In this document: positions 19,611 through 20,245 of the stretch, in pieces
How the letters are laid out: every line of letters begins with the position of its first letter
Position numbering within the stretch: the first letter of the stretch is position 1
NCBI GenBank assembly: GCA_946546825.1
Contig: CAMNOK010000002.1
Span: 1 to 64,000 of the forward strand
Length of the DNA stretch: 64,000 bases
DNA from: an uncultured bacterium
GTDB taxonomy: Bacteria; Bacteroidota; Bacteroidia; Bacteroidales; Bacteroidaceae
Reading direction: 5' to 3'
Made by a program: the position numbers and the translations under genes
Notes under the pieces: generated by a model
What the model was told of the DNA's origin: nothing
Seen by the model: the letters and a program-made list of their open reading frames with translations, nothing else
The model's database searches: none

Positions 19611-20007
19611 AATGTTTTGTTCTTAATGTTTTAGTTCGTTTTTGCTATAGTGGGTAGTTATATTATTGCGTGAATGATATTTAATTCGTTACAAAAGTAC
19701 AAATTTCATGTCGGTCATTGTTGTCTTCTCCTTTTTATTTAGTTTTTTTTATATTGCATGCTTTTTCATTTATATTCTTTAACCCATTTCGTCCATTTTC
19801 TTATTGCGTTGTAATGTTATTCTTTTTGTTTGGCAATGTTATTCTTTTTTAAAAAATTATGCTTCGCTGGTATTATGCATTCAATTAAAACATCAAACAT
19901 TGTATATTTTACGAACGAACAGTTCGAATAGTTGTTGCGTGTGGAAGAGGTTTGATAATACCAATTTTTGTTGACTTTCCTAAGTGAGGGAGGAAAGGCA
20001 TGGAGTA

Positions 20008-20096
20008 AAAAGAAAAAGCGATGACCCTCACGGGCAATCGCTAAATCTTCAATAGGTATTAGTCTCCTTAAGGTAAAAAGATTGTTTTCAGGATAA
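20008..20096 (-). ncRNA. Candidate small RNA of about 88 nt, unassigned family
   Basis: Minus-strand promoter immediately upstream and a terminator hairpin AGCGATTGCCCGTGAGGGTCATCGCT followed by TTTTCTTTT at the end; start inferred from promoter position. Confidence 0.6.
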
Positions 20097-20100
20097 CGAT

Positions 20101-20133
20101 GCAAAGATATGCCATTTTTCTTCTATCTGCAAA
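20101..20133 (-). promoter_or_regulatory. Promoter TTTG-N20-TATCTTTGC (minus) for the candidate small RNA
   Basis: Plus-strand GCAAAGATA 20101-20109 and CAAA 20130-20133. Confidence 0.65.
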
Positions 20134-20245
20134 TTTTTCCTTACCTTTTTTGTGTTTTTTTTGTAAAATATTTGTGTGCGGGCGCACAGATGCACAATAA
20201 GTGACAGAAAAATCTGTTTTGTTATTTATTTATTTGTTTTTTTAT

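Follow-up and report, generated by a model that had tools for sequence, protein, structure and literature searches.

A BTnc060-related small RNA gene in an uncultured member of the Bacteroidaceae and its predicted pairing with the small RNA FopS

The stretch of DNA analysed here, hereafter called the window, comprises 64,000 nucleotides (positions 1 to 64,000 of contig CAMNOK010000002.1 from an uncultured member of the Bacteroidaceae). Its minus strand contains, between positions 20133 and 20008, all promoter and terminator elements of a small RNA (sRNA) unit, and the sequence makes it near certain that the sRNA gene at 20008-20097 is real. A complete sRNA transcription unit on this strand had been proposed in an initial annotation based on the letters alone; both its promoter and its terminator could be located, and both are retained among the homologues of the sRNA. 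The individual features are the following:

20175..20188, no strand assigned: operator-like palindrome TGTGCGCCCGCACA (TGTG-N6-CACA), with its centre at about -84 from the inferred sRNA start
20130..20133, minus strand: -33 promoter element TTTG; about 100 of the 121 homologous loci have a TTG at a distance of 19-21 nt from the -7 box
20102..20109, minus strand: -7 promoter element TATCTTTG; TTTG is present in 121/121 loci
20008..20097, minus strand: sRNA gene of about 90 nt (start inferred, +/- 2 nt), placed by RF04184 homology, alignment A1 and covariance model R1
20069..20097, minus strand: invariant single-stranded block 1, GUUAUCCUGAAAACAAUCUUUUUACCUUA, of which CAAUCUUU and ACCUUA are predicted to pair with FopS
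20048..20062, minus strand: invariant single-stranded block 2, CUAAUACCUAUUGAA, of which CUAAUACC is predicted to pair with GGUAUUAG of FopS
20017..20042, minus strand: intrinsic terminator hairpin AGCGAUUGCCCGUGAGGGUCAUCGCU; 12/12 stem pairs of the family have changed on both sides
20008..20017, minus strand: T-tract of the terminator

The two promoter elements are separated by a spacer of 20 nt, and -33/-7 promoters of this type have been described for B. thetaiotaomicron (PMC7366714). A generic E. coli-type scanner detected neither a promoter nor a terminator at 20008-20133, because the promoter is of the Bacteroidota type and the terminator hairpin contains an internal mismatch. Beyond the -7 box, the minus strand reads GUUAUCCUGAAAACAAUCUUUUUACCUUA-AGGAGA-CUAAUACCUAUUGAAGAUUU, followed by the hairpin AGCGAUUGCCCGUGAGGGUCAUCGCU and the T-tract that extends to 20008. 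The 5' end of the RNA most likely lies near 20097 (GUUAUCCUG...), since sequence conservation begins there and the distance between the -7 box and AAAAC is constant (13-16 nt) across the 121 homologous loci. An RNA of about 88 nt behind a canonical promoter had been foreseen initially; our estimate is about 90 nt, and transcription would start a few nucleotides 5' of the UAUCCUG given earlier; the covariance model R1 locates the sRNA at 20011-20100. The RNA folds better than its shuffled counterparts (z -3.6), and nearly all of this excess stems from the intrinsic terminator, which had been correctly recognized from the outset (hairpin 20042-20017, T-tract 20017-20008). A palindrome that had also been pointed out within the RNA (CCUUAAGG) is a chance feature of the window copy, as other copies read CCUUAAAA at this position; the conserved features of the RNA are UUUUUACCUUA and CUAAUACCUAUUGAA.

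An open reading frame of 95 amino acids (19817-20104) overlaps the sRNA and had already been suspected to be spurious. We reject the coding reading, as its TTG start codon falls within the -7 box and hence upstream of the inferred RNA start. In addition, the frame is not kept among the 121 homologous loci, where it mostly ends after 5-21 codons, and insertions and deletions in the linker are evenly distributed over the three frames. Comparison of the sequences thus describes a free-standing gene that has a promoter and a covarying terminator to itself, is preceded by an operator at a set distance, and contains no conserved reading frame.

Recurrence at non-homologous loci and covariation in the stem had been named at the outset as observations that would support the unit, and both were found. 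Of 60 genomes of the genus, 57 yielded homologues of the sRNA in similarity searches, often with two to three copies each, as did 4 of 40 genomes of other families; the neighbours of the sRNA vary (see below). A pattern representing the exact core matched at least 119 stretches taken from named genomes; the matches listed include Prevotella, Segatella, Xylanibacter, Paraprevotella, Bacteroides, Phocaeicola, Mediterranea and Barnesiella, and Parabacteroides also carries the sRNA. In a sample of about one genome per family across the order, covariance model R1 recovered it from 14 of 118 genomes. The alignment A1 of 49 sequences contains 20 invariant columns, all of them in the unpaired part of the RNA, of which about 40 nt are nearly invariant. 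In the stem of the terminator, each of the 12 pairs has undergone compensatory change with pairing kept, and 94.8% of the stem cells are paired versus 74.4% in shuffles.

The RNA looks like an orphan, as it had been called, because the window yields no match at the gathering thresholds of Rfam. Judged by E-value, however, the RNA is homologous to family RF04184 (BTnc060), whose full model (1-213) matches positions 20144-20013 with 71.3 bits and an E-value of 3e-11 to 5e-11. The core of RF04184 is in register and nearly identical in the window copy, which also possesses the 3' intrinsic terminator with a GUGA-type loop; the 5' part of the model (positions 1 to about 125) is poorly alignable, and the score lies far below the curated cut-off of 228.9. 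Scores for this family fall smoothly outward, from B. finegoldii (239.8) via B. pyogenes (195) and B. gallinarum (168) to Segatella copri (73) and Paraprevotella (66 and 61). Since the cut-off excludes clear orthologues such as those of B. pyogenes and B. gallinarum, we refer to the window copy as a divergent homologue, which it almost certainly is, and not as a curated member. It has the invariant core, the promoter type and the terminator layout in common with the BTnc060 RNAs of Bacteroides, but differs from them in its neighbours, in the replacement of a Cur-like operator by TGTG-N6-CACA, and in its GAUUU and Prevotella-type terminator stem.

The B. finegoldii match, which scores above the cut-off, sits between phoU and ribE (L356 3878-4091), and only its last ~90 nt correspond to the conserved RNA. 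The first ~125 model positions are occupied there by the post-phoU terminator (CTCCTGTAAC...GTTACAGGAGTTTTT), a Cur-like site and the promoter, and this upstream terminator belongs to the pst-phoU operon. In our reading, the RF04184 model is over-long at its 5' end, which would inflate its cut-off, and this mis-bounding would account for the failure to recover the window copy at the curated threshold. BatR, annotated as a 374-nt RNA and later shown to be 154 nt in length, represents a similar case (PMC10861873). The ~125 nt of promoter DNA and upstream terminator in the Rfam entry would thus hide the family beyond close relatives of B. thetaiotaomicron. Directly after the sRNA terminator, the B. 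finegoldii annotation lists a 'hypothetical protein' (L356 4151-4429), which is possibly spurious.

Two types of operator-like palindromes are positioned at fixed distances from the inferred sRNA start. Sites of the AAATATGTTATAAGACATGTTT type match the Cur/BT4338 consensus wwwTATGTTnTAnAACATAwww (PMC3878776, PMC6989115). Such a site, with at least 11/14 of the consensus, is centred exactly at -52/-53 in 49 of the 78 loci devoid of TGTG-N6-CACA, versus about 4 found anywhere in shuffles, and in none of the 60 scored loci that possess TGTG-N6-CACA. Cur-like sites occur at Bacteroides-type loci, at 13/13 loci whose 5' ends diverge (most of these loci belong to other families), and at several second paralogues of Prevotella with UGAAUACAAUC (e.g., L256, linked to glnS). 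The second palindrome, TGTG-N6-CACA, is centred mostly at -74/-75 in 60 to 61 Prevotella-class loci, irrespective of which gene adjoins them. The window copy belongs to this class, which carries TGTG-N6-CACA in place of the Cur consensus site, and its palindrome at -84 is located one helical turn further upstream. Apart from the window site, the strict pattern TGTGYNSSNRCACA has no match in the assembly from which the window comes (1.72 Mb; 62% complete).

Half-sites spaced by N6 are usual for operators of the CRP/FNR family, and since both palindromes are built in this way, a regulator of the CRP type may reasonably be suspected for each of them. Lineage-specific control of the sRNA promoter appears likely. 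Judged by the motif, Cur (BT4338), a regulator responding to carbon limitation, would set transcription in Bacteroides and of the second Prevotella paralogue, while a putative DNA-binding factor that reads TGTG-N6-CACA would do so in the Prevotella class, including the window copy. Spot 42 and CyaR are sRNAs under the control of CRP-type regulators, as is MasB (PMC10994844); in all three, as in the sRNA studied here, a CRP-type operator lies upstream of the gene at a set distance, but control by Cur is deduced here from the motif only. A further palindromic box (CAANCGNTTGC/CAANCGNTTGCNCA; LacI/PurR-like) occupies a fixed position near -135 in 31 of the 121 loci, mostly of the Prevotella class (e.g., L059, L056, L030), and is absent from the window copy.

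An Rfam scan of Bacteroides-type loci revealed a FopS gene (RF04319) at a distance of 2.6 kb from the sRNA in Mediterranea. FopS is a recently described PUL repressor (Ruttiger et al. 2025, PMC11697453). Through pairing at translation starts it represses transporters of the SusC type, and RbpB acts as its antagonist (PMC11697453); that report uses neither the word 'sponge' nor the word 'decoy'. The seed region of the Mediterranea FopS (GUGUUUUUCAUAGUAUUAGAUUUAAGGUUAACAAAGG) is antisense to the invariant blocks of the sRNA, with CUAAUAC facing GUAUUAG and ACCUUA facing UAAGGU, and a further block (CAAUCUU/AAGAUUG) is found with the Prevotella type of FopS. FopS and the sRNA are both multicopy sRNAs of Bacteroidales with a 5' single-stranded region, an intrinsic terminator and a TAnnTTTG promoter, yet the FopS seed is antisense to the BTnc060 core, not similar to it; the FopS model finds no match at the sRNA locus at E<=5.

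Seven pairs of sRNA and FopS encoded at the same locus form predicted duplexes of -21.6 to -31.7 kcal/mol, strengths that are equalled by 0 to 7 of 400 dinucleotide-shuffled cores. When the core of the window copy was compared with 21,552 intergenic windows from 2.4 Mb (72%) of the complete congeneric genome G069, all four FopS copies therein ranked in the top 0.04-0.45%; with the reversed core they took ordinary ranks (48-70%). With the terminators of both RNAs folded, net binding is a modest -10 to -18 kcal/mol, a value matched by 1 to 7 of 60 shuffled cores. Moreover, the first ten nucleotides of the sRNA (GUUAUCCUGA) are invariant without being explained by pairing with FopS. The significance of the FopS complementarity is partly post hoc, as the link was spotted after the fact. 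FopS was not among the blastn hits of the antisense core; the complementarity becomes visible only by gapped RNA duplex scoring. In five species, the two genes lie 995-1096 bp apart on opposite strands. Of 36 genomes of the genus, 34 encode FopS, and the assembly to which the window belongs, one of these, has two copies. FopS is also found in 4/4 non-congeneric genomes that carry the sRNA and in 1/20 others at the cut-off, counts that ignore ancestry; the co-occurrence of the two RNAs could reflect shared ancestry.

Bacterial sRNA sponges and anti-sRNAs are known, with SroC, directed against GcvB, and AgvB as examples. With these, the RNA studied here has in common that it is a separate RNA with a conserved unpaired stretch complementary to the seed of another sRNA; it differs in that the interaction is a predicted one and in that its gene is free-standing with a regulated promoter of its own. 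In our estimation, there is about an even chance that the ~90-nt RNA is a trans-acting sRNA of the BTnc060 lineage that serves as a sponge, or anti-sRNA, of FopS. Its unpaired region would base-pair with the FopS seed (CUAAUACC with GGUAUUAG, ACCUUA with UAAGGU, CAAUCUU with AAGAUUG) and thereby titrate or destroy FopS, and the loss of FopS would relieve the repression of mRNAs for SusC-type transporters. The sRNA would then be a carbon-regulated anti-sRNA and not a direct regulator of mRNAs. More tentative, and somewhat on the doubtful side, is the wider proposal that BTnc060 and FopS are mutually antisense sRNA families across Bacteroidales with BTnc060 as the dedicated sponge of FopS, and that Prevotella has duplicated the sponge, swapped its operator for a nearly private one, and uses it in place of RbpB as the antagonist. 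Prevotella/Segatella and Bacteroides are the dominant bacteria of many guts, and FopS represents a post-transcriptional layer over the polysaccharide-use genes of these bacteria. A conserved antisense partner of FopS under carbon-type promoter control would, if true, add a missing off-switch to this layer and provide BTnc060 with a testable function. Since good pairing with the sRNA is also predicted for other leaders and 3' ends rich in AGGU, the sponge may be broader than FopS. Repeats of UUAGGU/UAAGGU directly before the terminator were noticed in Prevotella leaders and 3' ends (G069 C1 at 27.2 kb, 240.6 kb and 1804.7 kb; L215 at ~1500-1750), and RNAs of this kind may form a wider class of partners predicted to pair with the sRNA.

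It is unlikely, if by no means negligible, that the RNA is instead a classical trans-acting sRNA like GibS, MasB or BatR, which would repress mRNAs at their translation starts through its 5' end (GUUAUCCUGAAAAC) and its ACCU blocks, the complementarity to FopS being secondary. An invariant unpaired 5' end is typical of seeds. Moreover, the fifth-best uninterrupted pairing near G069 start codons is stronger than in 6/6 shuffles, and single strong sites exist, such as that in the leader of a TonB receptor with UUGUUUCAGGAUAA. Yet a whole-duplex scan of 1738 translation starts in 2.4 Mb of G069 gave no excess over the shuffled sRNA. None of the top-ranking sites (TonB receptor, AEC transporter, rpoD) is kept in congeners, and these genes were consequently rejected as mRNA targets; homologues of the HAD and TypA candidate-target genes were found. 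Mimicry of a start-codon target (CUAAUAC-N-AUG) was looked for at the SusC genes of G069 and not found.

We consider it rather improbable that the invariant region is a binding site for an RNA-binding protein, with which the RNA would be stored or which it would sequester, and that the pairing is incidental. The near-invariance of ~40 nt, with two UACCU repeats, does exceed most seeds in length. However, searches for RRM_1 proteins, the RbpB family to which the known FopS partner belongs, found none in the window's assembly and seven congeners (G000-G007), and such a reading would not account for the antisense match between the sRNA and FopS. The window's genus differs in this respect from Bacteroides, as RRM_1 was not found in the eight searched genomes despite the presence of FopS; hence, RbpB would not be required for the sRNA.

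Genes next to the sRNA occur in all four orientations among 145 loci and include GH2 (as in the window), rplU-rpmA, glnS, phoU/ribE and others. The initial annotation had placed the unit divergent from a GH2 gene, which does adjoin it; GH2 is one of several neighbours, found beside the sRNA in 15 of the 145 loci, and since neighbours vary in identity and strand, the sRNA is not part of a GH2 unit. The notion of a cis-acting leader or attenuator of a downstream or divergent gene, for which the adjoining GH2 gene and the location of the palindrome ~76 bp ahead of the start inferred for GH2 might speak, has only the slimmest of chances, as it is largely refuted by this synteny. Moreover, the RNA has a terminator of its own, 400 bp separate the unit from the start of the DUF1573 gene downstream, and the operator goes with the sRNA and not with GH2.

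Dissemination of the sRNA by phages was considered and rejected, as neither viral contigs nor phage records contained a match; the few matching 'plasmid' records are large or secondary replicons. A contig labelled Roseburia (L063; JAMPEL010000036.1) carries the Bacteroidota sRNA and has probably been mis-binned.
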